Below are positions 33,112 to 63,749 of a stretch of 64,000 nt of DNA, one piece after another. Source of the DNA: Candidatus Sulfotelmatobacter sp. (GTDB taxonomy: Bacteria; Acidobacteriota; Terriglobia; Terriglobales; Acidobacteriaceae); contig JAOAPI010000151.1 in the NCBI GenBank assembly GCA_025462865.1, positions 62,001 through 126,000 of the forward strand, written 5' to 3'. The notes under the pieces are model-generated. The model made no database searches and was not told where the DNA came from. It saw nothing but the letters and a program-made list of their open reading frames with translations. How positions within the stretch are numbered: the stretch's first letter is position 1; each line of letters starts with the position of its first letter. A program made the translations under genes and the position numbers.

Positions 33112-33188
33112 TTTGTAAGAAATGGCTCGAGAACGGCAGATAGATTTGAGCGACACTCGCATAACGGCGAGGGGGAGAGGATAAGGCG

Positions 33189-39462: not shown

Positions 39463-39499
39463 ATTGTTTTCTTATCTGCTTGCGCTACCGGGCATCGTC

Positions 39500-41860: not shown

Positions 41861-41988
41861 AGATGCATGTTACCGTGCCGGGACGAAGCCTTGGAGAAGA
41901 ACTGTTAGCATTTCGATTACCATCGCCCGGGCACGCCGGAGTGGGGCATAAACGGCCGGCGGCGCCTGCGACAGGGCACGAAAACAAA

Positions 41989-42798: not shown

Positions 42799-42807
42799 CA
42801 GAAAATC

Positions 42808-45284: not shown

Positions 45285-45293
45285 GCCAGTTGA

Positions 45294-46619: not shown

Positions 46620-46710
46620 TTTCGCAGTCTTTCCCCTTCCCCCGCGTTCCAGAGTCAACGATAGTCGAGTGTGCAACTTCCGGCAATTGCCACGCTGTGT
46701 AACCGGAACG

Positions 46711-47412: not shown

Positions 47413-47574
47413 AGCCCTCGGTGGAAAAACGACCGTGTCGGCTCGGCCAGCTCAGAATTGTATTCGGAGCGCTGAAGACTGCATTGAAATGCACCACAAC
47501 AGCAGGGAATTGCTATCATCACATGGTCCCCGTATGGCTGCCGTTGAAGCATACAGAAGGTGCAGACTCACTCA

Positions 47575-48627
47575 ATGTTGAGGCAATTGCGGCGCGCAGC
47601 CCTGACTATTCTAAAGAGAAGCGGCTCGTTTGAGCTGGTTAAAAACAGCAACTGGCGCCAGCAAAAGCTATTGATTTTATGCTATCACGGGGTTTCTGTG
47701 GAGGATGAAGACCAGTGGCGGCCTTACCTCTACATGACCGCAGAGCAACTGGACCGGCGTTTGAACATTCTTAGAGACGGCCGCTATGCGGTCCTGCCTT
47801 TGGCGGAAGCCCTGCAACGCCTTTACCGGAAAGACCTGCCGCCGCGGAGCGTCGCCCTGACCTTTGACGACGGCGGTTACGATTTTTATAAACGAGCCTG
47901 GCCGGCGCTAAAGCAGTATGACTTTCCCGCGACCGTTTACTTAACTACGTATTACAGTGCGGCGCAACGTCCCATATTCAATTTGATTGTCTCTTACCTG
48001 CTGTGGAAGGGGCAATACGCGGCGAGAGTTGACCTAGCTGAGTATGGAATTGATTTTCCAACGGACTTGCGTTCCGGAGAGTCTCGAGAGCAGATCGTCA
48101 GCCGGATGTTGGAATGGACGGAGCGCCGAAGTCTAAGCGGGAAAGAAAAAGATCAAACTGCCGCCTCATTAGCCTCGAGACTAGGAATCGACTACGAGAC
48201 ACTGTGCCGGAAACGTATTCTGCAAATCATGAATTCAAACGAGGTGAAGCAACTCACCTCCGAGGGCGTCGATTTTCAACTACACACTCACCGTCACCGA
48301 ACCCCTGCGACAGAAGAACTATTCCGGCGGGAAATTCGGGATAACCGGGAGTGGATCATAAACCTGATCGGAGGCGGAAGAGAGCATTTTTGCTATCCCA
48401 GCGGCGCCTACCGGCCGGAATTTCTGAGCTGGCTGGCCAAGGAGAAAGTCGTTTCCGCTACGACTTGCGACACCGGGCTCGCGACGCATGCCAGCAATCC
48501 TCTACTGTTGCCGCGGCTGATCGATACCAGCATGCGGACAGATCTCGAATTCGAAAGCTGGCTCAGCGGAGTCGGCCATTTTCTTTCGAGGCGAAGTCCC
48601 GGAGCCTTTGCCTACGTGGCCGACTGA
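47575..48627 (+). CDS. Polysaccharide deacetylase family protein (second)
   Basis: A 350-residue CE4-type protein. LILCYHGVS opens the domain, motif 1 is ALTFDDGGYDFY (TFDDG at 96-100), motif 2 HTHRHRTP lies near residue 233 and motif 3 is HFCYPSGAYRPEF. A helical insert of about 90 residues between motifs 1 and 2 distinguishes it from the 42-kb deacetylase. ATG 47575 is used; GTG 47560 in frame would add five residues. It is transcribed away from the phosphatase gene, with which it shares a 160-bp divergent control region, and stands alone on the plus strand. Confidence 0.85.
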   Translation: MLRQLRRAALTILKRSGSFELVKNSNWRQQKLLILCYHGVSVEDEDQWRPYLYMTAEQLDRRLNILRDGRYAVLPLAEALQRLYRKDLPPRSVALTFDDGGYDFYKRAWPALKQYDFPATVYLTTYYSAAQRPIFNLIVSYLLWKGQYAARVDLAEYGIDFPTDLRSGESREQIVSRMLEWTERRSLSGKEKDQTAASLASRLGIDYETLCRKRILQIMNSNEVKQLTSEGVDFQLHTHRHRTPATEELFRREIRDNREWIINLIGGGREHFCYPSGAYRPEFLSWLAKEKVVSATTCDTGLATHASNPLLLPRLIDTSMRTDLEFESWLSGVGHFLSRRSPGAFAYVAD

Positions 48628-48665
48628 AATTCGGACCCCGGAGCGGCCGATGATCGTGTGCTTAC

Positions 48666-49403
48666 TTATTTTGTAATCTGATAATAAATGCGGTGCCCCA
48701 GAATGCGATTGAGCAGGGGGGTATAGGAAATTTTTTCCAGTGGCATGAAAATGCTTGGCGCTTTATAAAATACCCGCCACACGATTGGAAACACCGCGCT
48801 TCGCACTTTCACGATTCGGCAACCATCACCAATCACATACCGCGCTTCCCACGGTAACGTTCCTCGTTCATCCCGAAAAAACCTTTTGAACAGGCCCACC
48901 ACGCCAAGGCCGTTGAGTGCGTTATCGAACTCCAGCACAATTGTTCCGCCGGGCTTCGTCACGCGTTTCATTTCCGCGATCATCTCACGTTGGGTTTCGA
49001 GGGAAAATAGATGCAAGAAGTTGAGTGTAATCACGACGTCAAAAGAGTTACTGGCAAACGGAAGTTGTTGAGCGTAGGAATTAGCCAGCGACCAACTGGG
49101 GGTCGTGCTTAGCTTGCGCGCTGTGACGCCGAGCATGTCCTTAGAGGCGTCACATCCAACGGCAAATTTCGATTCCGGTGCGAGTTCGACAAGGCCGCGG
49201 CCAGAGCCACAACCCACGTCGAGAATGCGTTTGCCTTTCAGCGAACCGATAAGATCTCGGTACGCCCTCGACATTACGGTCTGCCGGTATTCCGCTGGAG
49301 CACCGGTGTAACGGTGATCGTAGGTGGCGACGTCACGGTATCCCTCCGCCCCAACCTCGTAATCCACCACCTCGAGATTCGGCTTTTCACCGACGTCTAC
49401 CAT
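48666..49403 (-). CDS. Class I SAM-dependent methyltransferase
   Basis: A 245-residue methyltransferase. The SAM-binding motif I is RILDVGCGSGRGLVEL, followed by AVGCDASKDML and motif IV-like FDVVITLNFLHLFS; MKRVTKPGGTIVLEF is motif V/VI. The C-terminal 70 residues are the variable substrate part and hydrophobic near the end. Target unknown; a sugar or lipid-linked intermediate would fit the locus. ATG 49403 has GGAG and AAGAG upstream; the open frame continues 27 residues further but overlaps the preceding gene. Confidence 0.85.
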   Translation of the reverse strand: MVDVGEKPNLEVVDYEVGAEGYRDVATYDHRYTGAPAEYRQTVMSRAYRDLIGSLKGKRILDVGCGSGRGLVELAPESKFAVGCDASKDMLGVTARKLSTTPSWSLANSYAQQLPFASNSFDVVITLNFLHLFSLETQREMIAEMKRVTKPGGTIVLEFDNALNGLGVVGLFKRFFRDERGTLPWEARYVIGDGCRIVKVRSAVFPIVWRVFYKAPSIFMPLEKISYTPLLNRILGHRIYYQITK

Positions 49404-49464
49404 GCGCTCTTTTCTCCGGAACCTAATTGAACTGTTTGGGGAATGACGGCTGATCTTGACGATA

Positions 49465-50460
49465 TCAAACTGAACTCGATCCAACCAACTGCTTTAGACG
49501 AGTGCTTAGCATCCAAATGTTGCCCACCCGACTCCAGTGCTTTGAAAAGGATACCCCGTCAGAAAGGATGCGCACAGCACCTTTTAGCGTGAATGCGCTC
49601 AGAAGGGCCTGATCGATCGTGTAGTCGCCCACGTATCCGGCAAGAAAACCGTCGCGAGCAGCGTTCAGCGCCCGTGGTGAGTAGGGAACTCGTGCCCCCA
49701 GGACCAAGAGATAGCCAAGAAACATCCCCAAGTCTTCGTAGACAGGCTCTCGTTCCGTGAACCCCTCGAAATCCACAACCCCCACCCCAGCCCTCTCCAC
49801 CAGGATGTTCTGAGGTATAAAGTCACCGTGTTTGGCTGCTGCTGGTACGAACTTACCATCGAAACCGGCAGAGCCTTGCGACGCGCTCTGCAGTATGTCG
49901 CGCGTGACAGCGGCCGTAAATCCTTTTTGTTGCAATTTCGCCAGCCGAAATTCGAGATCGGCGAGAAAAGCCTCGATACTGAATGCAACGGGTTCTGCTC
50001 TGGTTGCACTTTGAAAGTTCCGCAACCAATCTCCAACGCGTTGAGCCGGTCCACGAAGCCGGCTTGTGCGAAATGGACCGGCAAGGCGATTTGCATATTT
50101 TTTCAGGACGTTTGTAAGCGGGTCTCCATCAACTTTGCTGGTGACGAGAAGTCCTGATTTTGGAATGGCCAACAAAGGTTCCGGAATGGTTTGCGCCAAA
50201 GGGGGTTCCAGAATCTCTTTGAGGCGCTTTAAGTTGGAATATTCGCTAAGCGTCGCTCGCTCGGCCCAGGGACCCGCGAACTGTCGCTTGATAATGATCG
50301 ACTTCCGCACCTCGCTGGAACCGAACTCATATTCGAGTAAATGAGAGTGCCGAGCGGAAACTTTTCTGGAAAACGTCAGAGTACCACCCGCGAAAGCGGG
50401 CTGTGACAGAATTTCTCTCTCGATTTCAAGGCAGAGTGTTAATTCCGCTCGTGGTTGCAT
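49465..50460 (-). CDS. Aminoglycoside phosphotransferase-like small-molecule kinase
   Basis: A 331-residue protein with the APH/choline-kinase fold. The catalytic loop is KHGDFIPQNILVE, the HGD-x4-N motif, followed by the metal-binding VVDFEGF and the acidic EPVYEDLGMFLGY. N-lobe features are weak: a Lys in SIIIKRQF and a Glu in SEYSNLKRLKEI. Enzymes of this kind phosphorylate sugars, aminoglycosides or membrane-lipid headgroups; here a sugar or polyol of the polymer is more likely than an antibiotic. ATG 50460 is used, TTG 50472 being possible. It is 61 bases upstream of the methyltransferase. Confidence 0.75.
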   Translation of the reverse strand: MQPRAELTLCLEIEREILSQPAFAGGTLTFSRKVSARHSHLLEYEFGSSEVRKSIIIKRQFAGPWAERATLSEYSNLKRLKEILEPPLAQTIPEPLLAIPKSGLLVTSKVDGDPLTNVLKKYANRLAGPFRTSRLRGPAQRVGDWLRNFQSATRAEPVAFSIEAFLADLEFRLAKLQQKGFTAAVTRDILQSASQGSAGFDGKFVPAAAKHGDFIPQNILVERAGVGVVDFEGFTEREPVYEDLGMFLGYLLVLGARVPYSPRALNAARDGFLAGYVGDYTIDQALLSAFTLKGAVRILSDGVSFSKHWSRVGNIWMLSTRLKQLVGSSSV

Positions 50461-50534
50461 CCAGATCGTCAAAACAGACGATCTTACATTCTACGCTGCG
50501 TCTCTTACAGATGGCACAACAGCTCTCCGAGGTC

Positions 50535-51635
50535 CTAGGCCTGCCGGAGGTCGGTGGTGTTCTGATGTTGTTGCAGCTTCTCTGTCGGTGGAGGATCCGT
50601 TCTAATCTCAATGTGCCCCAGTTGAATCAACTTTCTGAGCGGGGTGTTCTGCCTTGCCCATCGCTTCGATTCAAACAACGAAAAATAGGTGCCCCGAAGA
50701 CGCAGCGCACGCAGGCTCCATCGTTTTGGGGATTCCACCGGATATTGCAGTTCCCTCAGGAAATCGCCAACAACGAGTTCGAAATCGGCAGCCTCTTCAG
50801 AAGACAACTTGGTCTTCCATCTTCCCACCGGATTAAACCCTTTGACCGGTTCGTCTTTGAAGGAAGAGTTGGGTTGGCTGACTGAACCAATTGCAACATT
50901 TCGAATGCGATCCGGATCGAGGTCCTGCTCAATAAATTCGCTAAGCTGCGACAATGTTCCCTGGGGATGATCTACTAAGTCTTCGAAGCGGACTTCCTGA
51001 TAGTCCAAACCTAAAGCTTTCCCTTGTTCTCGCCCTTGGCGGACCATCCATTCCCAGTACAATCCTGCAACCGCCAGATGCTCCTGTCGGTCCCATGGGA
51101 GCGGGTGCGACCAACCTTGCTTAACATAGGAAAGGGCAACGTCGCGAGCGTCGCGAATAATGTGAATGAATAGTGCGTCCGGCAGTTGTTGTTTGATCTC
51201 TTCCATGTACAGCAAATGTTCCGGCGTACAATCTGCCCAGCGCGGGACATTCTGCGTCCCGGCGATCGCTTCCATCACAAGGCGCAAGAAATCTCCCGGG
51301 CCACGACACTCTTCGATGATTGATTGCTCGATTTGCCGGGCATCAAGTCCCGATCTCCGAAATAGCATGCTTCCGAGCCAATATTGCATCAGCTGTCGTC
51401 GATCGCTTTCCGAACGCATTCCACCAAAACGCGGCGCGAGTAGATTGAAAACGTTCGATTCGGTGCGGTATACCGCGAATCCTCCCGCCGATAGCAGCAT
51501 GTGGTACAGAAGAGTGGTTCCCGATCGCGGACATCCCAGCACGAAGACGGGTGCCTTTCCTCTGTTATATCCGGCAGAGGTAATCGCACTCAGCTTGTTA
51601 TCTGAAATCTTGTTATCCAAAATTTTGACCGGCAT
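50535..51635 (-). CDS. PAPS-dependent sulfotransferase
   Basis: A 366-residue sulfotransferase. The 5'-phosphosulfate loop is VLGCPRSGTTLLYHML (residues about 32-47) and the 3'-phosphate motif is IIRDARDVALSYVKQG. The conserved ADCTPEHLLYMEEIK between them also fits. It would move sulfate from PAPS to a carbohydrate or other envelope acceptor. The genes for sulfate activation (Sat/CysC) and for PAP removal (CysQ-like) are 8-11 kb away on the same strand. ATG 51635 follows an AGG; the frame runs 43 residues upstream without conserved sequence. It heads a unit with the kinase and the methyltransferase. Confidence 0.88.
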   Translation of the reverse strand: MPVKILDNKISDNKLSAITSAGYNRGKAPVFVLGCPRSGTTLLYHMLLSAGGFAVYRTESNVFNLLAPRFGGMRSESDRRQLMQYWLGSMLFRRSGLDARQIEQSIIEECRGPGDFLRLVMEAIAGTQNVPRWADCTPEHLLYMEEIKQQLPDALFIHIIRDARDVALSYVKQGWSHPLPWDRQEHLAVAGLYWEWMVRQGREQGKALGLDYQEVRFEDLVDHPQGTLSQLSEFIEQDLDPDRIRNVAIGSVSQPNSSFKDEPVKGFNPVGRWKTKLSSEEAADFELVVGDFLRELQYPVESPKRWSLRALRLRGTYFSLFESKRWARQNTPLRKLIQLGHIEIRTDPPPTEKLQQHQNTTDLRQA

Positions 51636-51815
51636 GGGGAACCTGACCGAAGACGAGAAAAGGGCTTCAAAGCAGGGGAAAGCCCGACTTTCATTACCCG
51701 ATGAGCTTGGCCGATGAGGGTTTACGGGAGATGAACAGAAGGTAAAAAGAAGGTTAATTAACACGCAGGAAACGCTACCAGTTGCGCGAAATACCCCATC
51801 GAGGCTTATCCGCCT

Positions 51816-53627
51816 CTAATCCACGCCGGCAGTAGCTCCCAGAATCGCGTTCACGTCTGCTCCCAGGTCTTTGCCATCCGTTCCTTTGCCTCGGTAGGGA
51901 CTCGACGGTTGCAGGCGATAATCACCATTTTTCCCGCCGTTGTAATTCACGAATTTAACCGCGGCGGCCGAGGCGGGAAAGAAATTGTTGGGCGGCCACG
52001 GGCCGGCAGGCGCGCCAATAATGACGTTCGTTGAAAAGTTAGAATTGACGAAACAAGCGGTCCATGTGGTCAGAGGCGAATCGTGAAAGGCGCAATTCGC
52101 TGGGCCGCCGCCGGTGGACCATACAGGATAGGTCCCCACGCTAAAAATATTGTTCGTGAAGACCACATTCTTCATCTGCTGACTCGTTGCAACCACATCC
52201 CCGACAATCAGCAAATGCTTCGTCGGGAATGCCGTGACGTGATTGATGGTTACATTTTGCAGGAGCGGGGCTCCTGCGGTTACCGACAATTGTGCGAATT
52301 CACCATCGCCGATATATTTGACCGAATCCATATCATCGATGGTGATGTCATGGATGCTGTAGCGCTGACCGCCGCGCGCGGCCGCGCCATAGTCCGACAA
52401 TGCATTGGCAATCTGCAATCCGGCGCCAACGTGGAGGATGCTGTTATACCGGATGGTCACATCAGTAACCTGGCAAACTGAGCATTGGCTTGTCCTTCCG
52501 GGATTTTTCGGGGTAAGCACGATCGCAAAGCCCACCTGCGAGAAACCGCCCCACGTATTTTCCATGATGTTGCCTTCGACTAAGATCCGCTGGGCATTCT
52601 TAAGTTCCAGGAGATTCTTGACGATAAACGGATTTCCGTCCGCGCCGCCCACGTAACCCGGCTGACCCTTCAGCCAGCTCAAGGGCTTGAACATATGATT
52701 TCGGCTGATTTGAATATCGGCCGGGGTCGCACCGGCCCCGCCACCTCCGAGCATAAAGTTCTCTCCGGAAGCTTCGAGAAAATTGTTTACGATCTTGTAA
52801 GGGCCCATCGGATCATCGCCAAGGCCCCCGGCGATTGCTTGCGCGTCCCCGCACGAGCCTGTTCTGCTGACGCAATGGAAGTCCGTGAAAAACGAATCCA
52901 CAACAGCGACATAACGGGTCGCGCCCAACAGGATGCCCCTGACCGTCTCTGAGTGTGCGGTTCCGTGAAACCACAACCGATCGAATATCAGGTGATCCGC
53001 TTTTCCCATGAACTGGACCAGATCGTACACAGCGCCCGCGGTTTCGTTCCGAGTGAGTTCCAGCCCAATCAGCCTGTAATGATTGGCTCCCGGGGCGAAC
53101 AGCAGGGGCCCTATACTGCCCGTACCTTCTATCTTTGCCATAACATTCGTGGCAGACGCGCAAACCCACGGAGGTCGGCCAGGCAGAGATGACACTCCTG
53201 CGTAACAGGGTGTCAGCCGCAACCCTTCCTTCGGCAAAGCGGAATCGGGTGCGCTCGTACGAAGAATGATCCAATGCGAGTCATCGCAATTCTTGGCGGG
53301 AAGCACGAACTTACCTGCAAAGGTGGCCCCAGCCTGTAATTGAAGAATATCGCCGCATGCCGCGTCAGCCAGGCTTTTCTCGAGAGCCTTTGCGGATTGT
53401 ACTGTCCAAGTTTTACCTGCCGCGGGAGTGTCTCGAATAGAGCTTTTCACATATTCGCGCGGCAGCTCTGCCGGACCATCGAAATTGTTCGTATTCGGTG
53501 GTGAGGAAGAGTGATCTAAAGCGTGAAGAGCGGGCAGAATAAAGAACAAAACAACAACTTGGATAACGGCCGTGCAAATGGTGAAAAGCTTGGCCGTCAG
53601 TGTTGTTCTCTCAAGGATGATCTTCAC
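51816..53627 (-). CDS. Secreted right-handed parallel beta-helix protein (short paralogue)
   Basis: A 603-residue exported protein; the signal segment is residues about 13-36 (VVLFFILPALHAL). The mature part repeats Asn/Ile/Val-rich turns such as VEGNIMENTWGGFSQVGFAIVL and DVTIRYNSILHVGAGLQIAN, typical of pectate-lyase-like parallel beta-helices that bind or cut polysaccharides. It aligns with residues 256-818 of the next upstream protein almost throughout, and both end in GTDGKDLGADVNAIL/GADLNAIL followed by ATAGV. The catalytic type cannot be assigned. Eight cysteines suggest disulfides. Position beside the flippase and sulfotransferase genes suggests work on the exported polymer. Confidence 0.78.
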   Translation of the reverse strand: MKIILERTTLTAKLFTICTAVIQVVVLFFILPALHALDHSSSPPNTNNFDGPAELPREYVKSSIRDTPAAGKTWTVQSAKALEKSLADAACGDILQLQAGATFAGKFVLPAKNCDDSHWIILRTSAPDSALPKEGLRLTPCYAGVSSLPGRPPWVCASATNVMAKIEGTGSIGPLLFAPGANHYRLIGLELTRNETAGAVYDLVQFMGKADHLIFDRLWFHGTAHSETVRGILLGATRYVAVVDSFFTDFHCVSRTGSCGDAQAIAGGLGDDPMGPYKIVNNFLEASGENFMLGGGGAGATPADIQISRNHMFKPLSWLKGQPGYVGGADGNPFIVKNLLELKNAQRILVEGNIMENTWGGFSQVGFAIVLTPKNPGRTSQCSVCQVTDVTIRYNSILHVGAGLQIANALSDYGAAARGGQRYSIHDITIDDMDSVKYIGDGEFAQLSVTAGAPLLQNVTINHVTAFPTKHLLIVGDVVATSQQMKNVVFTNNIFSVGTYPVWSTGGGPANCAFHDSPLTTWTACFVNSNFSTNVIIGAPAGPWPPNNFFPASAAAVKFVNYNGGKNGDYRLQPSSPYRGKGTDGKDLGADVNAILGATAGVD

Positions 53628-53705
53628 GGGAGAAGTGGTTGTTGGAGTTACGATAGACCGTGCTGGGGCTGAAGAGCAAGCAGTCTTGGAAGGGTTTGAA
53701 AGTTC

Positions 53706-53731
53706 GCGGCCGCCGGAACACCGGCGGCCGC
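53706..53731. repeat. Perfect GC-rich hairpin between the two beta-helix genes
   Basis: An 11-bp perfect inverted repeat (GCGGCCGCCGG / CCGGCGGCCGC) with the loop AACA sits 18 bases after the stop codon of the upstream, longer beta-helix gene. In the direction of those genes the T-rich stretch precedes rather than follows the stem, so it is not a classic terminator. It may block 3'-exonucleases or attenuate read-through into the second paralogue. Confidence 0.6.
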
Positions 53732-53748
53732 AAGAAAAAGGCTTATCT

Positions 53749-56205
53749 CTACTGGACGCCGGCGGTAGCAGCGAGAATTGCGTTCAAGTCCGCTCCCAGA
53801 TCCTTGCCGTCGGTTCCTTTCCCTCGATAGGGACTGGAGGATTGCAGTTGGTAGTTCCCGCCATTTCCGCCCTTGTAGTTGACGAATTGCACGACGTCGG
53901 CCGAAGCGGGAAAGAAATTATTTTTAGGCCACGCGGAAACAGGATAGTTGGAGCCTGGCGCCATGATCGCGTTGTTTATGAAGCTGTAATTGCTGAAACA
54001 ACCGGTCACGGTGGTCAAAGGTAAATCAGCAATGGCGCAATTGCCAGTTCCACCAGTGGACCAGATCGGGTAAATTCCGGCATACGAGATGCTGTTGGTG
54101 AAGACAAAATTCTTCATCGGCCCACTGGTTGCGACCATGTCACCAATAATAAATAGATCGTTCGCCGGGAAGGCGGTAATGTGGTTAATGGTCACATTCT
54201 GAAGGAGCGGGGCGCCTGCGCTTACAGAAACCTGTGCGAATTCGCTGGGGCCGTTGTATTTCACTCCATCGATGTCGTCAACAGTGATGTCATGAATGCT
54301 GTAACGCTGGCCGTCGAGTGCGCCGGTTCCATTGTCCGACAAGGCGTTAGCGATTTGCAGTCCTGAGCCGACATGGCTGATGGTGTTATACCGTATGGTC
54401 ACGTCGGAAACCTGGCAGACTGGGCAGGGGCTTGTGCCACCGGGATTCTTTGGAGTGAGCACAATGCCAAATCCGACTTGAGAGAAGCCACCCCAGGTGT
54501 CTTCCATAATGTTGCCTTCGATTAAGACGCGCTGAGCGTTCTTCAGTTCGAGGAGGTTCTTCACGCTGAACGGATTTCCGTTCGCGCCGCCGACGTATCC
54601 GGGCTGCCCCTTCATCCAGGTCAAGGGTTTGAACATGTGGTTCTGGCTGATCTGAATATCAGCCGGGGTGGTTGTGCCGGAGTCTCCTCCGAAGATTATG
54701 TTTTCTCCGGAAGCCTCGAGGAAGTTACCCGCAATCTTGTAAGGTCCACCGGGACTGGTACCGATGCCGCCGGAAATTGCCTGCGCATCGGTGCAGGAAC
54801 CCGAGACTGAAATGCAGTGGAAGTCCGTAAAGAAAGAATCCACGATTGAGATGTAAGTTCCGCCCGCAAGGGCTACGCCGCGGGTAGTCTCGTCCTGGGC
54901 GGTTCCATGCAGCCAAACCCGATCAAAGATCAGGTTATTGGCAGTACCGCCACTCGCGATAAAGGCGAGTGCATTGACCGCACCCGTTCCCGCGGGACGA
55001 GTGATTTCGAGACCGACAAGGCGGTAGTAGTTCGCCCCCGCGGCGAACGTGACGGGACCATTATTGGTCGCGGTCAACATCAGTTTCGCCAGGACGTTGG
55101 TCACGGAAGCGCAGTGAAAGGATGGACGGCCGGGCAGCGAAGAAACTCCCGCGTAACAGGGCGTAAGACGGCTGCCCTCCGGAGGCAACAAGGAATCGTC
55201 GGCGCTGGTACGCACAACAATCCAATGATTTTCGTCGCAATTTTTCGCTGGAAAAGTGAACACGCCCGTAAAAGTTGCGCCGGCTTGCAGGTGAATGGTG
55301 TCACCACACTGGGCGCTGTTGAGTGCGGACTGGAAATTCCCGCCGGCGTTCACCGTGACTATGTTGCCGGCAGCCGGGGTGTTTGACATCCCAGTCTGAA
55401 TCAGAATGCGAGGTAATTCGGCCGGACCGTCAAATCCGCTGGCCGAAACAGGCGACACCGTCAAGCTCAGTCCGGCGGTCGCGGTGTGTCCCGCGGCATC
55501 GGTCACTTTGGCCGTAATAGGATAAGATCCGGAAAACGCGGTGGTTCCCGAAATCACGCCGCTGCTGCCTTCCAGCTGAATTCCTGATGGCAATGCCCCA
55601 TTCGCGAGATTCCAGCGATACGGCTTCACGCCCCCGGTTGCAGCGAGTGTGGCGCTATAAGAGACTGTGGTTTCGGCTGCCGGCAGGGCAGAGGTTGAGA
55701 CTGCGAACGTGGTGGGAGCGGTTACGATCACCGTAGACGATGCGGACGAAGATCCGCCACTGGTTGGCGTGTTTTTTCCGGTGGTTGGATTGTCGGTAGA
55801 ATGGTTCCCATCCCCAACTCTAGTCGGCACAGGCTGCGAAGGACTTGTGACGGTAACGGTAACCGGCGTGTTGCTGGCGACATTGGGTGCCGTGAAAATT
55901 CCGTCGCTCGAAATGGTTCCTGCGGTGGTTGACCAGGTGACCGTCGTGTTCGAACTTCCGCTGACGCGGGCGACAAACTGTAGCTTGTCCAAGGACGCGA
56001 CAGTCGCTGTGTCGGGTGAGAGAGTGAGCCTAGGCGAGGACCCGTTTGCCGAGCTGGACGCCGCATTCTGCGAGGACGATAAGGAACCGCATCCAACCGT
56101 CAGCCCGGTAAGGCAGAGTAAGGTCGACACGAAGATAACAATCGAAATTAGAAATTTATCATCGCGGGTGTGTTTCACCACATCCAAGCTCGCGAACTTC
56201 TGCAT
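53749..56205 (-). CDS. Lipoprotein with Ig-like domains and a parallel beta-helix (long paralogue)
   Basis: An 818-residue exported protein. A hydrophobic segment (about 19-37) ends in LTVGC, so Cys39 may be lipidated, although Thr at -3 is unusual. Then come a Ser-rich stretch, a bacterial Ig-like domain (about 60-120, LTLSPDTATVASLDKLQFVA), a low-complexity spacer and a putative-Ig (He_PIG) domain (about 165-252, PSGIQLEGSSGVISGT). From 256 on it is a parallel beta-helix closely similar to the downstream paralogue. The added Ig part suggests surface display of the helix. Start ATG 56205 has GAGG upstream, and a run of eight C lies 25 bases before the start. Confidence 0.8.
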   Translation of the reverse strand: MQKFASLDVVKHTRDDKFLISIVIFVSTLLCLTGLTVGCGSLSSSQNAASSSANGSSPRLTLSPDTATVASLDKLQFVARVSGSSNTTVTWSTTAGTISSDGIFTAPNVASNTPVTVTVTSPSQPVPTRVGDGNHSTDNPTTGKNTPTSGGSSSASSTVIVTAPTTFAVSTSALPAAETTVSYSATLAATGGVKPYRWNLANGALPSGIQLEGSSGVISGTTAFSGSYPITAKVTDAAGHTATAGLSLTVSPVSASGFDGPAELPRILIQTGMSNTPAAGNIVTVNAGGNFQSALNSAQCGDTIHLQAGATFTGVFTFPAKNCDENHWIVVRTSADDSLLPPEGSRLTPCYAGVSSLPGRPSFHCASVTNVLAKLMLTATNNGPVTFAAGANYYRLVGLEITRPAGTGAVNALAFIASGGTANNLIFDRVWLHGTAQDETTRGVALAGGTYISIVDSFFTDFHCISVSGSCTDAQAISGGIGTSPGGPYKIAGNFLEASGENIIFGGDSGTTTPADIQISQNHMFKPLTWMKGQPGYVGGANGNPFSVKNLLELKNAQRVLIEGNIMEDTWGGFSQVGFGIVLTPKNPGGTSPCPVCQVSDVTIRYNTISHVGSGLQIANALSDNGTGALDGQRYSIHDITVDDIDGVKYNGPSEFAQVSVSAGAPLLQNVTINHITAFPANDLFIIGDMVATSGPMKNFVFTNSISYAGIYPIWSTGGTGNCAIADLPLTTVTGCFSNYSFINNAIMAPGSNYPVSAWPKNNFFPASADVVQFVNYKGGNGGNYQLQSSSPYRGKGTDGKDLGADLNAILAATAGVQ

Positions 56206-56229
56206 TTGGGATAACCTCGTAACAGAGTT

Positions 56230-56237
56230 GGGGGGGG
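56230..56237 (-). repeat. C8 homopolymer upstream of the beta-helix lipoprotein gene
   Basis: Eight consecutive C on the minus strand (G8 on the plus strand), ending 25 bases before the start codon of the lipoprotein gene. Such tracts change length by slippage. It lies in the leader or promoter, not in a coding frame. A regulatory role is speculative. Confidence 0.5.
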
Positions 56238-56426
56238 ACCGTGTTCGAGCCCTCTGATAGCACTCTAGAGAAGGGAAGCCTTAACGACGAGATTACTCAG
56301 GGACACGTCCAACAAGAGCACACTAGTACATCACTAATGTGCAATGCACTTCCGGGTTTGATACAGGCGGTTGTGTGCCCGGAGAACAGTGCAACAGACT
56401 TGAAATTTCCGCTGTTGCGGATTTGC

Positions 56427-57989
56427 CTACGTTTGTTCCTGCTGATAAGTATCGATCAGTCCCACTGCAACCTGATTGGCTGCATCCTGGTCATGGATTC
56501 CTTCGACCTGCCACGCCTTGCGCGTCCAAGTCGCCCACAGAAGCCCTGCGCCATACACGGCCGACCCTACCAAGAGGTGAATTGTTAGTTGGAGATAATT
56601 ATGCGGTACAAACCAACTGCGCATCAGCAGCAAGACCGCAACCAGCGGCGCACAAAGTAAGGTTGGCAGCAAGAATGCCTCACGCAGGTAAATCCCCAGG
56701 CTGAGGTTAAGAACTCGGCAAAGGTGCCGCGGCAGAAAAAAGAGAGTCGTACACAGCAGTGGTATGGCAGTTCCCGCAGCATCTCCTAAAATACCAAAAC
56801 GCTTGACGAGAAATATACTCAAGAACACATTCGCTCCACCCTCCAGCAGTGTCACAATTGCGAGTGATTTATGTTTAGCCATTCCGAAAAGCACTCGATT
56901 GGAAGCGGATTGCGCCAGCATCAACGTGGATGGAACCACTAAAACCAGCAGGATGGGATAGCTAGCGGCTACGTAACGCACGCCTACCCATGCTTCAATC
57001 ACTGACTTACCCAAGATGATGAGGATCGCGGCCATGGGAAAAATGATGAAAGCACAGGCTCGGTTTCCCGCCAAATAGATTTTTCTCAATCCAGCCAAAT
57101 CCCCGGTCGCATCCGATTTGCTCGACATGGGAACGAAGACTTGAGCCAACCCACTGACCACTTCTCCCGCGTAGTCCACCAGCCGCGATCCAATGGTGAA
57201 GTAGGTAATTGCCGCCGCGGAAAGAAATCTGCCAATGATCATGGCATCAGTCTTAAAGCGCAGACGGCTCGCAACGATGATGATAAAGGTCGAACTGCTG
57301 TAGGTTGCGATACTGCGAATGCTGTCACGATTGAAATTGTTAATGCGCAGCCGCAAAGGCAGGATTCGCAGAACCGCGGCGGCATTGATCAGGCCGGATA
57401 GAAGCGGCATCCCTACTGTAATCGCGGCGACCGTCAGAAGGCCCCTGCCATGCCGCAAAGCAAAAACGATTGCACCCGCCCGTAGCAGCGTTGCTCCGAT
57501 GCTGGTAAAGTTCAGCAGATAGAAACGCTGCAACCCTTCAAGCACACCTCCAAAAACTCCCAACGGAAAGGCCAGAGCCACCGCGAAGCCGACGATCAAG
57601 AAAAGCCAGCGCGCGGTCGAAAGAAAATCGGGCTCGATTTTCGCAATCGTACCCAGATAATAACTTCCGAGCCAAGTCAGCAGGATGGCCATCAAACCGA
57701 TGCCGCTGTAAGTGAGTAACGCTGTACTGATAAGCCGGTCCATCTCGCCGCTCTCGGCGTTGGCTGAGTATTTAGCGACATAACGAATGATGGAAGACCG
57801 TATTCCCAGATCGAACAGCCCGTAATATCCGGTGATGGAAAAGATCAAGACCCACAGTCCGAAGGCGCTGTCCCCCAAATGATGAAGGATGTACGGGGAG
57901 AGAAAAATTCCCACCAGAATATTGACTCCCAGGGCAAACCAACTGGAGCCGACATTCTTGAAGAGCGATAGCTGATCCAGCTTCTTCAT
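56427..57989 (-). CDS. Wzx-type polysaccharide flippase
   Basis: A 520-residue polytopic protein with twelve to fourteen membrane segments, of the MOP exporter superfamily. It opens LSLFKNVGSSWFALGVNILVG and LSPYILHHLGDSAFGLWVLI, and has the flippase-type LGIRSSIIRYVAKYSA motif. It should turn the lipid-linked repeat unit to the periplasmic side, feeding the Wzy-like enzyme at 29 kb. ATG 57989 is used; a TTG at 58013 in frame is the alternative. The gene follows the beta-propeller gene by about 40 bases and is probably cotranscribed with it. Confidence 0.9.
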   Translation of the reverse strand: MKKLDQLSLFKNVGSSWFALGVNILVGIFLSPYILHHLGDSAFGLWVLIFSITGYYGLFDLGIRSSIIRYVAKYSANAESGEMDRLISTALLTYSGIGLMAILLTWLGSYYLGTIAKIEPDFLSTARWLFLIVGFAVALAFPLGVFGGVLEGLQRFYLLNFTSIGATLLRAGAIVFALRHGRGLLTVAAITVGMPLLSGLINAAAVLRILPLRLRINNFNRDSIRSIATYSSSTFIIIVASRLRFKTDAMIIGRFLSAAAITYFTIGSRLVDYAGEVVSGLAQVFVPMSSKSDATGDLAGLRKIYLAGNRACAFIIFPMAAILIILGKSVIEAWVGVRYVAASYPILLVLVVPSTLMLAQSASNRVLFGMAKHKSLAIVTLLEGGANVFLSIFLVKRFGILGDAAGTAIPLLCTTLFFLPRHLCRVLNLSLGIYLREAFLLPTLLCAPLVAVLLLMRSWFVPHNYLQLTIHLLVGSAVYGAGLLWATWTRKAWQVEGIHDQDAANQVAVGLIDTYQQEQT

Positions 57990-58028
57990 TAGAAATGGCC
58001 AGTGAATCCGCAAAGTAGATGTCGCCCG

Positions 58029-59021
58029 CTAAGGAATGGCGGGGTAAATGCCAAAAATTACATTCATCCCAAAGCCTTCAAGATCAATCTCCCGCAAACA
58101 TACTTTCTTTTCGATATCGTACAGTGCGATATGCGTGGGGCTTTCTTTCTCCCGGAAAGCGTGCTTGATCCATAAAACATTTTCGGTGAACTTGGTTTTG
58201 CGAACTCTTGTGAAACCTACCCAGACCCTGCGGTCATCGACAGGAAGAATTCCGCGGCACCAACCCAGCAAAACCTCCTGTTGATGCTCAGACCGGTGAA
58301 TCTCGTTAAGATCGATGATCTGGTCGATTGCGAGCGAGTGGCGGTTCGCGATAACCACTCTACCGTCGACAGTAGTGAAATAGATTCTGTCACCCCAAAC
58401 CAGCCCATCGTGAGGACGTTGCACTTCTATGTTAATCCGCTTACCGGGGGTGCTCAGGCAAATCGCGTCCTTCTGTGTGAGCCGAGTCACCCATACTTCT
58501 TCGCCCAGTTGAAACACCCCGTTCGGGTGAGCGAGGTGCGGCTTCGTGCTTTCCACCCGGCGATAGTCCACGTGCCTCGAAAAACGAGACCATGGATCGC
58601 CCCCTAACACATCCCATTCGGACAGGATTCGTCCCTCGGGCGTAAACAATACCACCATATCCAGTCCTGTATTGGCCGCCAGCAGATTTCCGTCCGCGGT
58701 AGGAGTCACATGATGCAGATCGTTAAAACATGGGAGTGAAATGTAGCCAATGCGTTTGAATCCCGGTAATTCAAAGATCAGAACCTCGGTCGAGGTGCAC
58801 GCATAGAGCTTGTTTCCGACCAGCGATGCCGATTTGAACGAATGCGATGATTCGTCGCTGGCGCGCGCCTCAGGAGGGGTTTTATATTCAAGCTCAACAG
58901 TGGCATCACCGGTCGAAGGGCTGAGAATCAGAATGATGGCAGCTTCGTAGAGGCGCTGCTCTTCTTCATTCTTGAAAAGTGATTTGCGCTGCCGTCCTCC
59001 GAGGAGGTAAAGGGAACTCAT
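58029..59021 (-). CDS. Unnamed protein, probably a beta-propeller
   Basis: A 330-residue protein without signal peptide or membrane segment. It shows five or six strand-rich repeats ending in patterns such as VGNKLYACTSTEVLIFELP, NLLAANTGLDMVVLFTPEGR and WGDRIYFTTVDGRVVIANR, as expected for an NHL/SMP-30-like propeller. A His-rich phrase, LPCFNDLHHVTPTADGNLL, and PHLAHPNGVFQLGEEVW could hold a metal or ligand. I cannot name a family. ATG 59021 lies 6 bases after GGAGG-like sequence. It stands directly before the flippase gene, hinting at a role in the same process. Confidence 0.65.
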   Translation of the reverse strand: MSSLYLLGGRQRKSLFKNEEEQRLYEAAIILILSPSTGDATVELEYKTPPEARASDESSHSFKSASLVGNKLYACTSTEVLIFELPGFKRIGYISLPCFNDLHHVTPTADGNLLAANTGLDMVVLFTPEGRILSEWDVLGGDPWSRFSRHVDYRRVESTKPHLAHPNGVFQLGEEVWVTRLTQKDAICLSTPGKRINIEVQRPHDGLVWGDRIYFTTVDGRVVIANRHSLAIDQIIDLNEIHRSEHQQEVLLGWCRGILPVDDRRVWVGFTRVRKTKFTENVLWIKHAFREKESPTHIALYDIEKKVCLREIDLEGFGMNVIFGIYPAIP

Positions 59022-59191
59022 CAGAGGAATACCCTTCCTGAAATCTATTCATTCGCTGGAAAATTATTCATGGTTCGCACCCAAAACTTGTGCAAAGGGT
59101 AACGCGAACACGAAGATTTATCGTATTGGATAACGAACATCTTTGACCAGCACACTCGGGTTCAAGCTGCAAGCAAGTAATCTTGACAGGC

Positions 59192-60001
59192 CTATATTTT
59201 GTTCGCAGCCATCTGCGTGTGCGGTTCCACCAGAGCAAGCAATAGTTCTCTCAAAAACGGCCCGCAAGCCAGCAATCCCGACAAAAGCGGATCGCGTCGG
59301 TTGGCTGTCAAATTCGTTTTCTCCAGCGTGCTGACAAATCCGCCGGAACTTTGCACCAGGGCGGCTCCTCCCACTACGTCCCACTCATTTTTAGGAGTGA
59401 GAGTGAAAGTAACGTCTGCCAGCCCAGCCGAGACCAGGGCGAGTTTGTATGCTACTGAACCCATCGGGCGGATCTTGAACCCAGCATTCTCGAAAGGCTT
59501 CCATTCGCCCCGCTTCACCTCGCTGCGGCTGGCCAATACCAAGGCACCGTCGAGGCTCTTTCGCTGGCTAGGCTGGGAAGGCTTTCCGTTATAAGTGACG
59601 CCGGCGCCGATTGATCCCAGAAAGGTTTCGCCTGTTGCTGGATTGTAAATTCCGCCAGCTACGGGACGGCCGTCTTCGACGTATCCGATCGAAACGCAAA
59701 ATTCGGGAATGCCCTTCACGAATTCACGGGTGCCGTCGAGAGGATCGACCACCCAAACCCGCGAGCGCTGCAGGCGGACAGGATCGTCAACGCTTTCTTC
59801 GGAAAGCCAACCTTCTCCTTCGCGCAAGAGTTCCTGGCGAAGCACGGCGTCGAGCGCGCGATCTGCTTCCGTAACTGGATCGTGTCCTACCTTGTATTCG
59901 GTCTCAATCGCTCCTGGGGTGAACCGGGCAAATACCGCGCGAGACGCTTCCAGCGCAGCGTGAATGCGTTCGAGTATAGGGCCGTAAGAATTTGAGTGCA
60001 T
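59192..60001 (-). CDS. cysQ: CysQ-like 3'(2'),5'-bisphosphate nucleotidase (inositol monophosphatase family)
   Basis: A 269-residue Mg-dependent phosphatase. The metal-binding set is intact: Asp in DPVTEADRALDAVL, Glu in WLSEESVDD, and the core WVVDPLDGTREFVKG; the C-terminal Asp is in NEWDVVGGAALVQSSGG. CysQ removes the 3'-phosphate of PAP, the by-product of sulfotransfer and of PAPS reduction. An inositol or histidinol phosphatase role is possible from sequence alone, but the nearby sat-cysC and sulfotransferase genes favour CysQ. ATG 60001. Confidence 0.82.
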   Translation of the reverse strand: MHSNSYGPILERIHAALEASRAVFARFTPGAIETEYKVGHDPVTEADRALDAVLRQELLREGEGWLSEESVDDPVRLQRSRVWVVDPLDGTREFVKGIPEFCVSIGYVEDGRPVAGGIYNPATGETFLGSIGAGVTYNGKPSQPSQRKSLDGALVLASRSEVKRGEWKPFENAGFKIRPMGSVAYKLALVSAGLADVTFTLTPKNEWDVVGGAALVQSSGGFVSTLEKTNLTANRRDPLLSGLLACGPFLRELLLALVEPHTQMAANKI

Positions 60002-60065
60002 ACTCTTTCAGTATTTTAAGTTGATCGAACAGCAGGGTTCGGACCCACTTCAAATCATTCCCAAA

Positions 60066-60833
60066 TCAAGCCATTAACATGCGCGCGCCCGTCGTCAGCA
60101 AAACTGCGCACAGGATACGTCTCAACCAGGGGACCGGAACCCTCGTGCTCAGGTAAGAACCCATCAGTCCTCCTGGAATCGAGCCGATTAATAAGGCACC
60201 GACCAGGTTCATGTCTACATTATGCATTCGGAAATGCAGAAGACTAGTAACGCCGGTCAAGATCAATGCGTGCACAATATCGGTTCCCACCATGACCTTT
60301 GGCTGGAAGCTGTAAAAGAGCAAAAGCATCATCATCACGATACTGCCCGAGCCTACCGAAGTGATGCCGACCAGAAATCCCGCCACCAGGCCGATGAGCC
60401 ACATCCAGGCGAATGATTTCATCGTCGGCGGACGCACTGCTGCCCGGTCCTCGATTTTCTTTTGAAAGAAAAGGAAAGTCGGAATGCAAATCAGAAGCAC
60501 CCCAACCGCGACGGTAATGAAGTGATTGACGCCGTTGCCGTAAAGATTCCGCAGGTGGATCAGGTAGCTTACGCCGAGATAAGATCCGGGAGCGCTGCCG
60601 GCCGCCAATGCCAAAACAACTTTGCGGCGAACGGTGCCCTTGCGCAAGTGCACCCAACTGGCGCCGATCTTGGTAACAAAATTGAATAGCGCGTCGGAAC
60701 CGACGGCGCGAATTGCGGGCACGTGCAAACCGAAAATCAGGATCGGAAGCAGCAAAACGCCGCCCCCGAGTCCCGTCATTCCAATAAGGGTCCCGACTCC
60801 AAAACCTACCAGGATCTTGATCAGTAAATCCAT
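60066..60833 (-). CDS. TauE/SafE-family anion permease
   Basis: A 255-residue inner-membrane protein with about eight membrane segments and the two family halves GVGTLIGMTGLGGGVLLLPILI and GLVAGFLVGITSVGSGSIVMM. TauE/SafE proteins carry sulfite, sulfonates or sulfate-like organic anions. Between cysQ and sat-cysC it may bring in sulfate or release sulfite, but the direction is not known from sequence. 47 bases separate it from the sat-cysC stop codon, and all three genes likely share a transcript. Confidence 0.85.
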   Translation of the reverse strand: MDLLIKILVGFGVGTLIGMTGLGGGVLLLPILIFGLHVPAIRAVGSDALFNFVTKIGASWVHLRKGTVRRKVVLALAAGSAPGSYLGVSYLIHLRNLYGNGVNHFITVAVGVLLICIPTFLFFQKKIEDRAAVRPPTMKSFAWMWLIGLVAGFLVGITSVGSGSIVMMMLLLFYSFQPKVMVGTDIVHALILTGVTSLLHFRMHNVDMNLVGALLIGSIPGGLMGSYLSTRVPVPWLRRILCAVLLTTGARMLMA

Positions 60834-60880
60834 GCCAGTATTGGCTTCAGCCTCCTGAGTTACTGGCCTCAGCCGGAGAA

Positions 60881-62626
60881 CTAGACAGACTCCGCCGCCG
60901 TTCCGATGAAACCCTCCCTCTCCAGATGCAGAATGATTTCCTGAGCTGCTTCCTCGGGAGACAGTTCGCCGGTGTTGATGGTGACTTCGGCGTCGGCCGG
61001 CGCTTCGTATGGATCGGAGATGCCGGTGAACTCTTTGAGAATTCCGGCGCGGGCCTTCGCGTACAAGCCTTTGCGATCTCGTTGTTCGCAGACTTCGACG
61101 GAGGTTGCGATGTGCACCAGAATGAATCCTCCGTACGGCTCAATTAACTGGCGAACATATTTGCGGGTGGCGTCATAGGGCGCGATTGGCGCGCAAATGG
61201 CGATACCGCCGTTCTTGGTAATTTCCGACGCAACGTAGCCGATGCGGCGGATGTTGATGTCACGATGCTCCTTGGAGAATCCGAGTTCGGAAGATAAATT
61301 TTTGCGAACCAGGTCGCCATCCAGCAGCGTGACCGGACGCCCGCCAGTTTCCAGGAATTTCGTGAGCAGCACATTCGCAATCGTCGACTTGCCGGAACCG
61401 GATAGTCCGGTAAAGAAGATGGTCACGCCTTGCTTATGACGAGGCGGGAAGCTGCGGCGCAACTCGGCCACAACTTCGGGATAAGTAAACCATGCGGGAA
61501 TATCGCGGCCCTCGTTCAGACGCTGCCGAAGCTCCGTGCCGGAAATATTCAGTACACGGTCGCCCTTCTTCACTTCGTCGTCAGGAACATATTTGTCCTG
61601 GTCTTCGAGATAGACCATCATGTTGAAAGGAACCATGGTGACGCCGATGTCGGCTTCGTGCTTTTTGAAAACTTCTTGCGCTTCGTAGGGACCGTAGAAG
61701 GGCCTGCCGTCCGTGTCTTTGCCCGGACCCGCGTGGTCGCGGCCCACGATGAAATGGGTGCAGCCGTGATTCTTGCGGATGAGAGCGTGCCAGATAGCCT
61801 CCCGTGGTCCGCCCATGCGCATGGCGAGAGGCAGCAGGGAAAGCTTCGCGGTTGACTGCGGAAACTTGGAAAGCAGCAGTTGATAGCAGCGCACGCGCGT
61901 GTAGTAGTCAACATCGCCGGGCTTGGTCATGCCGACCACGGGATGTATCAGCAGGTTGGCTTCGACTTGCTTCGCAGCGCGGAAAGCCAACTCGACATGG
62001 GCGCGGTGCATGGGGTTGCGAGTCTGGAATGCGACCACTCGCCGCCAGCCGACGCGGGCAAATTCGGCGCGCAACTCACTCGGAGTCAAACGAAGATTGC
62101 GAAAATCGTAATGGGATGGAATCTGGAGACCTTCCAGCTTGCCTCCGACGTACCAGGGATTCGCCTTGTTCATGGCGTAATCCGAACCGGGATGCGCGGC
62201 GCTGGTGCTGCCGAAAACTGCCTTGGCTTCCGCTTTGCGGTCGGGCAGCCAGACTTCTTCCACATTCAACACGGCTAACATCACGCCTTCGGGATCGCGG
62301 AGGGCGATCTTGCTGGTGCCTGGCGAAAGTTTTTTGGCAAATTCCTCGGTCACGTCGAGTGTGACCGGCATGGGCCAAAGTGTTCCGTCGGCTAAACGCA
62401 TGTTGTGGCAAACGCCGTCGTAGTCGGCGCGCGTCATGAATCCGCGCAGCGGAGAAAAGCCGCCACTGAGCAGCAACTCAAGATCGCAAAGCTGGCGGCC
62501 TGTCAGGTCCCAGGAGGGCCACTCTTTGGAGTGAGCTTTCAATTCGGCAGTTTTTTCTGGCTGAGCGATAAGTTGGATAAGTTCTCCGCCATGGGGCGGA
62601 ATGAGATGGCTGGTCGAAGCTGTCAA
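60881..62626 (-). CDS. sat-cysC: Bifunctional ATP sulfurylase / APS kinase
   Basis: A 581-residue fusion that makes PAPS from sulfate in two steps. Residues about 1-400 are ATP sulfurylase: the active-site phrases AFQTRNPMHRAHVELA and FIVGRDHAGPGKDT, and SGTELRQRLNEG at the end of the domain. Residues about 405-581 are APS kinase: P-loop FTGLSGSGKSTIAN, LLDGDLVRKNLSSELGFS and GLYAKARAGILKEFTGISDPYE. The kinase active-site residues are intact, unlike the dead domain of fungal enzymes. No cysN/cysD or PAPS reductase gene is near, so the PAPS may be meant for sulfation. ATG 62626. Confidence 0.93.
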   Translation of the reverse strand: MTASTSHLIPPHGGELIQLIAQPEKTAELKAHSKEWPSWDLTGRQLCDLELLLSGGFSPLRGFMTRADYDGVCHNMRLADGTLWPMPVTLDVTEEFAKKLSPGTSKIALRDPEGVMLAVLNVEEVWLPDRKAEAKAVFGSTSAAHPGSDYAMNKANPWYVGGKLEGLQIPSHYDFRNLRLTPSELRAEFARVGWRRVVAFQTRNPMHRAHVELAFRAAKQVEANLLIHPVVGMTKPGDVDYYTRVRCYQLLLSKFPQSTAKLSLLPLAMRMGGPREAIWHALIRKNHGCTHFIVGRDHAGPGKDTDGRPFYGPYEAQEVFKKHEADIGVTMVPFNMMVYLEDQDKYVPDDEVKKGDRVLNISGTELRQRLNEGRDIPAWFTYPEVVAELRRSFPPRHKQGVTIFFTGLSGSGKSTIANVLLTKFLETGGRPVTLLDGDLVRKNLSSELGFSKEHRDINIRRIGYVASEITKNGGIAICAPIAPYDATRKYVRQLIEPYGGFILVHIATSVEVCEQRDRKGLYAKARAGILKEFTGISDPYEAPADAEVTINTGELSPEEAAQEIILHLEREGFIGTAAESV

Positions 62627-62987: not shown

Positions 62988-63749
62988 TCAGCCCTGAGCG
63001 CGCGACCAGTCCTTTAAGTGCCAGCCGCGCCCGTGCGCGCACAAAGCAGCCGCATAACCTGGACCCACAGGTATTTCCCGGAGAGACCAGAGCGTAGCTT
63101 CGGAAGCGTCAGGCCGGGTCGCAAGCAAGGCGTCTCTGTCCTCGGCTGCAACGGATACATCGAACTGATGCAAGGGCAGCGACAACCCGTCGCCGGTCGC
63201 CTTGATGTAGGCCTCCTTGCGGGTCCAGCAGCGGAAGAAGGCCTCAAACTTTTCCCCGTCCGGCAGAGCCGCAAGATGTTCACGTTCGTGTGCTGAAAAG
63301 AAGCGGCGGGCAATGGCCTCGACGTCAAAATCCTGTCGCACTTGTTCCACATCGACACCGATCTCTCGTCGCCGCGCGAAAGCGAGTAGCGCGACTCCTC
63401 CGGAATGCGAAATATTGAAAGTCATGCCGCTGGCTGCATAATCCGGTCCCAGAGAAGGCTTTTCTTTTTTCGAATAGGAGAAGCTCAAATGCTTTGGATT
63501 CTCTGCCAGGTAACCCGCCAGAATTATTCTCAACAGGGCCCGCGCCGCCGCGAAGCGCTGACGGTCGGTGGGAAAATGAAAGCGGGAAGCGCGGGTCGAT
63601 TCGTCCGGTGAGAGTATTTCTTGCCAACGGGATTCGTTGTCGCGAATCGCCTCGAGATCGACACGCCAGAGTTGCACTTCTTCCTCGGCGAGCGTGAGAG
63701 GCTCCTCGATCTGGAAGTCCGGATCGGCGATATTCATGGTCTGATTCAT
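62988..63749 (-). CDS. 4'-Phosphopantetheinyl transferase (Sfp type)
   Basis: A 253-residue enzyme that moves phosphopantetheine from CoA to a carrier-protein serine. The family motifs are REIGVDVEQV (Mg-binding Asp and Glu) and FFRCWTRKEAYIKATGDGL (W-x2-KEA); the N-terminal half carries FNISHSGGVALLAFA and RFAAARALLRIIL. The length is that of Sfp-type, two-subdomain enzymes, used for polyketide, nonribosomal peptide or fatty-acid carriers. No carrier protein gene is in the window. ATG 63749, with a second in-frame ATG at 63737. Confidence 0.9.
   Translation of the reverse strand: MNQTMNIADPDFQIEEPLTLAEEEVQLWRVDLEAIRDNESRWQEILSPDESTRASRFHFPTDRQRFAAARALLRIILAGYLAENPKHLSFSYSKKEKPSLGPDYAASGMTFNISHSGGVALLAFARRREIGVDVEQVRQDFDVEAIARRFFSAHEREHLAALPDGEKFEAFFRCWTRKEAYIKATGDGLSLPLHQFDVSVAAEDRDALLATRPDASEATLWSLREIPVGPGYAAALCAHGRGWHLKDWSRAQG

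Follow-up and report, generated by a model that had tools for sequence, protein, structure and literature searches.

Why should a bacterium keep the genes of sulfate activation beside those for an exported polysaccharide? The question is raised by a stretch of 64,000 nucleotides (hereafter the window) from the acidobacterium Candidatus Sulfotelmatobacter sp. (GenBank assembly GCA_025462865.1, contig JAOAPI010000151.1), in which genes for a fused ATP sulfurylase–adenosine 5'-phosphosulfate (APS) kinase (Sat-CysC), a TauE/SafE permease, a CysQ-like phosphatase and a sulfotransferase lie within or next to a polysaccharide locus of exosortase-A type. The window comprises bases 62001-126000 of this contig, here termed C62; the draft genome measures 6.08 Mb in 189 contigs and is 98.45% complete. 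Among named sequences, the five that best match the window's Sat-CysC over the full length (L126-L130) are 87-90% identical and carry the names Candidatus Sulfotelmatobacter (three), Acidobacteria and Terriglobia; the Candidatus Sulfotelmatobacter group has been described from peat (PMC6018796). We favour, with a probability of about 0.68, the reading that the block is a shared supply of 3'-phosphoadenosine 5'-phosphosulfate (PAPS) embedded in or beside the exosortase-A locus of a sulfated polymer, which would receive its sulfate before export. In many genomes of the genus the unit stands in or beside such a locus and is accompanied by one to four sulfotransferases, drawn from two families.

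The genes concerned follow one another on the minus strand in the order sulfotransferase, two paralogous proteins, flippase, conserved protein, CysQ-like phosphatase, TauE/SafE permease, Sat-CysC and phosphopantetheinyl transferase. Those singled out in the preliminary description of the window, the flippase included, were recovered by open reading frame analysis and Pfam searches as intact reading frames on this strand and in the same places. The Sat-CysC protein (60881-62626) exceeds the equivalog cut-off for the bifunctional enzyme (NF004040, 932.3 bits against 669) and includes both domains (PF01747 and PF01583) of a PAPS synthetase. Next to it are the TauE/SafE permease (60066-60833; PF01925, 1.9e-46, 159.1 bits against a cut-off of 32.6) and the CysQ-like protein (59192-60001; PF00459, 1.7e-46), a probable 3'-phosphoadenosine 5'-phosphate (PAP) phosphatase. 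The arrangement is conserved: of the genus contigs, 31 extend 3 kb or more downstream, and in all 31 TauE adjoins Sat-CysC, with CysQ directly after TauE in 30. Judged by family and order, the three genes most likely form a PAPS supply-and-recycling unit that is shared with assimilation. The family of the permease was, we take it, formerly known as DUF81. Because sulfate import has been ascribed to a DUF81 protein in Corynebacterium (PMC1266029), the permease is more likely to import sulfate than to export a by-product; the source genome also holds one full match to the SulP family (PF00916).

At the far end of this run of genes the sulfotransferase (50535-51764; Sulfotransfer_3, PF13469, 4.7e-27, 96.1 bits against 27; PF00685, 4.9e-8) carries the loops CPRSGTT and RDARD, which we take to be PAPS-binding, and RSGT and RD.RD are retained in at least 95% of 29 homologues of this window type. 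These 29 members, the window's own copy included, are the copies on retrieved contigs, several of which were retrieved for such a match, and one strong match (G023:C298) was left out; in 26 of them two or more kinds of polysaccharide marker occur within 15 kb, and three (G009:C443, G002:C87 and G016:C275) have no marker in that range. The true start is probably the ATG at 51635, since this codon is in frame at residue 44 and homology begins at query residues 58-70 for most strong matches. A structure predicted without an alignment was unusable (mean predicted local distance difference test score, pLDDT, 38.6). That the set covers PAPS synthesis, sulfate transfer and PAP removal, as proposed earlier, is borne out by the gene families, and activation, CysQ-like phosphatase, permease and sulfotransferase genes are found together in or beside the polysaccharide locus. 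The latter is identified by an exosortase A (18565-19524, minus strand; PF09721; TIGR03109, 221.7 bits against a cut-off of 208) and an XrtA-type priming transferase (TIGR03013, 449.3 against 393.35). Compared with known XrtA loci these two markers exceed their cut-offs, whereas the chain-length protein (TIGR03007, 199.8 against 278.85), the ATPase (TIGR03015, 300.2 against 324.5), the tyrosine kinase (TIGR03018, 152.2 against 230.65) and the amidotransferase (TIGR03108, 696 against 816.9) are related proteins that fall below theirs.

Is this neighbourhood peculiar to one genome? Sat-CysC was found in 41 of the 45 genus genomes searched, and in all 20 with a completeness of 90% or more and a contamination of 5% or less. 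We mapped 40 contigs from 40 of these 41 genomes; G009, in which Sat-CysC is split over two small contigs, remained unmapped, and G003:C38, with Sat fragments, was left out of the linkage counts and the gene-content tally. Long contigs are the 22 whose flanks on the two sides add up to 20 kb or more, and a locus was taken to require three or more kinds of polysaccharide core gene within 30 kb. On this basis 14 of the 22 hold a polysaccharide locus, 13 a sulfotransferase and 12 both, and the same combination, which the preliminary description had proposed to look for, is thus seen in many relatives. The sulfotransferases of these 12 contigs belong to the window type in 11 and to a second type, Sulfotransfer_1 (PF00685), in 10, with both types in nine. 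The window's own locus has the window type only, and the G014 locus has Sulfotransfer_1 without the window type; the second type adjoins CysQ in G014 and, as a tandem, in G013, and occurs in other linked loci. Eight of the long contigs have fewer than three polysaccharide markers, and one of these, G050, still possesses three sulfotransferases. The next mapped gene after CysQ is an XrtA-type ATPase in G010, G015 and G057, and a tyrosine kinase followed by the ATPase in G045.

The density of sulfotransferases points in the same direction. The 40 contigs together provide 1.118 Mb of flank within 30 kb of Sat-CysC, and 37 are found in it. From the genus-wide total of 417 family matches in 240.9 Mb (per-genome totals and rounded genome sizes), no more than 1.94 would be expected; 417 is an overcount and 1.94 therefore an upper bound, because the PF13469 and PF00685 families overlap. 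The 37 were found with queries from these very loci and the expectation comes from Pfam family counts; as the genomes share ancestry, the comparison is a ratio and not a probability. Counted by hand among the matches listed, 38 members of these families are situated no more than 30 kb from Sat-CysC; they come from 16 of the 41 genomes.

What, then, does the block supply? In a profile search of the source genome Sat-CysC was the one match to ATP sulfurylase (PF01747). The single match to PF01507, a family that covers CysH and CysD, is a CysH on another contig, C140, which also carries all matches to sulfite reductase (PF01077); CysD was thus not seen in the PF01507 search, and CysN was not searched for directly. 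The reported absence of PAPS reductase and sulfite reductase genes from the window accordingly stands, with no match to either family on C62. In place of an assimilatory sulfate reduction operon we find cysH and cysI on C140 and Sat-CysC on C62; of the arrangement that the preliminary description had wished to see checked, cysH and cysI elsewhere beside a second sat, the place was confirmed and no second sat was found. As Sat-CysC is the sole sulfurylase found and cysH and cysI are unlinked to it, the enzyme must also serve cysteine synthesis. The preliminary description had held that a sole Sat-CysC with cysH elsewhere would sink the idea of sulfation. Both circumstances were indeed encountered, and sulfation survives them, as CysH appears to be of the APS type: the cysteine pairs CC and CxxC, the signature of APS reductases, are present in 14 of 14 genus loci and are shared by the solved APS reductase 2goy and by 7lhr, with which the protein aligns. 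An iron-sulfur cluster reportedly separates APS-using from PAPS-using organisms in assimilation, to go by the title of a 2002 paper cited in PMC1266029. If CysH takes APS, the APS-kinase half of the fusion is unneeded for cysteine and PAPS must serve something else; this half would have no evident use but the making of PAPS. A module dedicated to sulfation is nevertheless rejected, because Sat-CysC is the only sulfurylase found and the block persists on 7 of the 22 long contigs without a locus or sulfotransferase nearby. Of the sulfation module attached to the exosortase locus that was first envisaged, the attachment holds (12 of 22) and the privacy does not.

The following sequence of events would accommodate these observations, each enzymatic step and the direction of transport being predicted from the gene families. 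TauE, perhaps aided by a SulP protein, would import sulfate, which the Sat half would convert into APS. At this point the pathway would divide, part of the APS being reduced for cysteine by the unlinked CysH of APS-reductase type and part being turned into PAPS by the CysC half. A cytosolic sulfotransferase would then move sulfate from PAPS to the sugar repeat unit, free or lipid-linked, with the polymer rather than a lipid or a small molecule as the likely acceptor, and the flippase would export the repeat unit after sulfation. The CysQ-like enzyme would clear the PAP that is left behind.

A number of observations weigh against this scheme. The best NCBIfam match of the CysQ-like protein is CysQ, at 125.9 bits against a cut-off of 228.8, so that the name CysQ-like reflects no more than its superfamily and gene context, and the solved structures closest to it are those of inositol monophosphatases. 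The models for CysH do not by themselves discriminate between the two types (APS-type TIGR02055, 224.7 against 235.3; PAPS-type TIGR02057, 203.8 against 254.2; general PRK02090, 271.1 against 154), and the CysH of B. subtilis is reported to accept APS as well as PAPS (PMC1266029). The intergenic gaps of 361, 170, 221 and 121 bp (window coordinates) do not suggest a single tight operon. Two long contigs, G004 and G046, have polysaccharide genes and no sulfotransferase in the retrieved part; in G010 the sulfotransferase-bearing locus is on a different contig from the Sat-CysC block. Seven long contigs (G003, G007, G010, G048, G055, G057 and G059) keep the block with neither locus nor sulfotransferase within 30 kb, although the retrieved flank varies by contig and a missing locus may lie further out. 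Other sulfotransferases elsewhere in the genus genomes are further possible users of PAPS. Finally, among the 80 best named Sat-CysC loci, TauE was matched beside Sat-CysC in close relatives only (L126-L129, L131-L133, L153 and L163; not L130).

Could the neighbourhood then be an old accident, the block being the ordinary assimilatory activation unit of the genus and the sulfotransferase a usual member of the locus that borrows its PAPS? The sole sulfurylase, the distant cysH and cysI and the seven contigs with the block on its own would suit this explanation, as would the Sat-CysC tree, in which linked and unlinked genomes are intermixed, well-supported branches force at least four changes and linkage is only weakly clustered (26 of 500 shuffles as low). 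The tree labels comprise 17 linked genomes (16 of them on the tree) and, as genomes with the two apart, G001, G007, G010, G015, G048, G055, G057 and G059, the others being unlabelled. Against it, the 37 sulfotransferases far outnumber the 1.94 expected at most, and this density disfavours a pure accident of neighbourhood. Furthermore, cysH and Sat-CysC were both found in 13 genus genomes and reside on different (draft) contigs in every one of them, while sat, cysH and cysC can stand together in another family of the same order (G027:C9); and a CysC domain and a PAP phosphatase would be of little purpose if CysH used APS and nothing used PAPS. We consider the accident unlikely. The other doubt concerns the acceptor. 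The sulfotransferases may be real and act on a lipid, a PEP-CTERM protein or a small molecule in place of the polymer: the sequence does not reveal the acceptor, the solved proteins nearest in sequence are the polyketide sulfotransferases 4gbm (CurM; 1.2e-6) and 4gox (2.3e-6), and the substrates of exosortases are proteins. Set against this, 26 of the 29 window-type copies sit among polysaccharide markers, and the closest published locus of like make-up directs a capsule that has been shown to be sulfated (PMC11766843). An acceptor other than the polymer therefore seems improbable to us, and sulfation of the polymer from a shared PAPS supply remains the reading we prefer.

The remaining genes of the locus bear on the identity of that polymer. 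According to Pfam and NCBIfam, its core (19967-37465, plus strand) encodes a regulator, export and chain-length proteins, the ATPase, the tyrosine kinase, the priming transferase, glycosyltransferases, a Wzy_C ligase-type protein, an MBOAT protein and an amidotransferase. The remainder (37531-50472, minus strand except for one deacetylase at 47560-48627 on the plus strand) encodes an amidotransferase, a heparinase II/III-type enzyme, polysaccharide deacetylases, an ATP-grasp protein, a glycosyltransferase, a UDP-sugar dehydrogenase, a low-molecular-weight phosphatase, a methyltransferase and an APH-type kinase. Beyond the sulfotransferase follow, on the minus strand, the tandem paralogues at 51816-53627 and 53749-56205, 65% identical and for most of their length without a Pfam family (the former has no Pfam match, the latter an extra Ig-like domain, He_PIG, 25.6 bits against a cut-off of 24), and the Wzx-type flippase (56427-58013; PF13440, 4.7e-14; WZX_like, 51.9 bits, below the cut-off of 300). 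In Foldseek, a structural model of the first paralogue matches lyases of polysaccharide lyase family 6 (PL6) and chondroitinase B, with a best E-value of 5.8e-6; as the model is of low confidence (mean pLDDT 51.3), a PL6-type beta-helix lyase is a lead only. The gene content of the 12 linked loci includes a heparinase-type gene and at least one of the beta-helix paralogues in all 12, and a dehydrogenase and a deacetylase in 11 each. From this content and the weak structural match, a glycosaminoglycan-like sulfated polymer might be imagined, in which the UDP-sugar dehydrogenase would provide uronic acid, amino sugars would be deacetylated, up to two sulfotransferase families would add sulfate, and the heparinase II/III-type enzyme and the PL6-like lyases would trim the product. 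We regard this as doubtful: the heparinase-type gene and the dehydrogenase are also present in both loci that lack a sulfotransferase in the retrieved part (G004 and G046), and the set by itself is thus no proof of such a polymer. If true, it would mean that an acidobacterial genus uses an exosortase-type system to export a heparan- or chondroitin-like matrix.

Several known systems offer parallels. The capsule cluster of Cobetia marina KMM 1449 likewise combines PAPS genes (ATP sulfurylase, APS kinase, cysQ and sulfate permease) with sulfotransferases; the structure of its polymer shows sulfate, whereas the acidobacterial locus is known from its genes. Cobetia differs in being a marine gammaproteobacterium with an ABC-type capsule and a PAPS operon with cysNC and cysD instead of Sat-CysC, and no exosortase is noted in the parts of the report at hand (PMC11766843). 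The wps-1 cluster of Actinoplanes missouriensis likewise has Wzx and Wzy, two sulfotransferases of different families and an adjacent Sat/APS-kinase gene, AMIS_7390, the deletion of which severely disturbs sporangia and leaves mutants that look normal on agar (PMC13390465). The sporangia of one of the two sulfotransferase mutants looked normal, and sulfation was not measured in that work; this actinomycete differs in that AMIS_7390 is not co-activated with wps-1, and an exosortase is not noted in the sections seen (PMC13390465). The synechan (xss) cluster of Synechocystis is also of the Wzx/Wzy type with two sulfotransferases and a measured sulfated product, but belongs to a cyanobacterium, and its main text mentions neither PAPS nor an exosortase (PMC8205485). 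In Pontiella, N-sulfated, glycosaminoglycan-like polymers have been measured and a putative sulfotransferase lies in the polysaccharide cluster (the title of a supplement names PF13469); these are marine anaerobes, and the main text is without exosortase, heparinase or PAPS (PMC7356697). Sulfated polysaccharides of bacteria have been described as confined to cyanobacteria or as uncommon elsewhere (PMC8205485, PMC13390465), Cobetia (PMC11766843) and Pontiella (PMC7356697) being marine cases. The present arrangement, an exosortase with a sulfotransferase or an acidobacterial sulfated polysaccharide, was not found described in the open-licence papers searched. Acidobacteriota are abundant in soils. 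If our reading is true, the trait would extend to the acidobacterial phylum, the sole sulfate-activating enzyme found would sit in or beside the locus and tie the use of sulfate to the extracellular matrix, and the locus would supply sulfotransferases and lyases for testing.

Outside the genus, the 80 best named Sat-CysC loci were compared. A CysQ-family gene was matched in 23 of them, and 11, several of which belong to close relatives, have two or more kinds of polysaccharide marker. Sulfotransferases also occur within 10 kb of Sat-CysC in other phyla: ten of ten candidates from distant loci exceed a Pfam sulfotransferase cut-off (no planned sample; the candidates of L139, L142, L151 and L172 are outside these ten, and L132 was checked separately). 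A planctomycete locus (L166) combines a sulfotransferase with matches to a priming transferase, a tyrosine kinase and, weakly, an exosortase. Two further Sat-like genes were observed within the genus, namely pieces of Sat-CysC beside phosphopantetheinyl transferase, TauE and flippase homologues (G003:C38, L310), which look like the remains of another copy of the block, and a divergent gene (36% identity) adjoining a PF13469 sulfotransferase (G004:C67:4308-6232).

A scan for promoter- and terminator-like sites gave 5 and 16 against 7.6 and 16.8 in shuffled sequence, and with counts so near the shuffle level no operon map was drawn. Beside the CysQ-like gene lies a conserved protein without a Pfam match (58029-59021, minus strand), the slot of which is taken by the Sulfotransfer_1 genes in the locus maps of G013 and G014. 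At the other end, the phosphopantetheinyl transferase (62988-63749, minus strand; PF01648, 1.1e-21) is a frequent upstream neighbour of Sat-CysC, about 1.1 kb upstream in many relatives. The reaction of this enzyme also liberates PAP, which a PAP phosphatase could clear. Elsewhere, PF13469 and PF00685 matches lie a few kb apart in G013:C13, G014:C172 and G018:C16, and the source genome has two more sulfotransferase matches at the start of a contig (C98:139-1746; L004, L006, L120). A second exosortase gene is present in the source genome at C57:10005-10784 (L125). Its contig C7 (C7:1-10000; L121) bears part of a sulfotransferase gene at its edge; distant homologues of the priming transferase, the XrtA ATPase and the export gene lie a few kb away, and this is perhaps a second polysaccharide locus.

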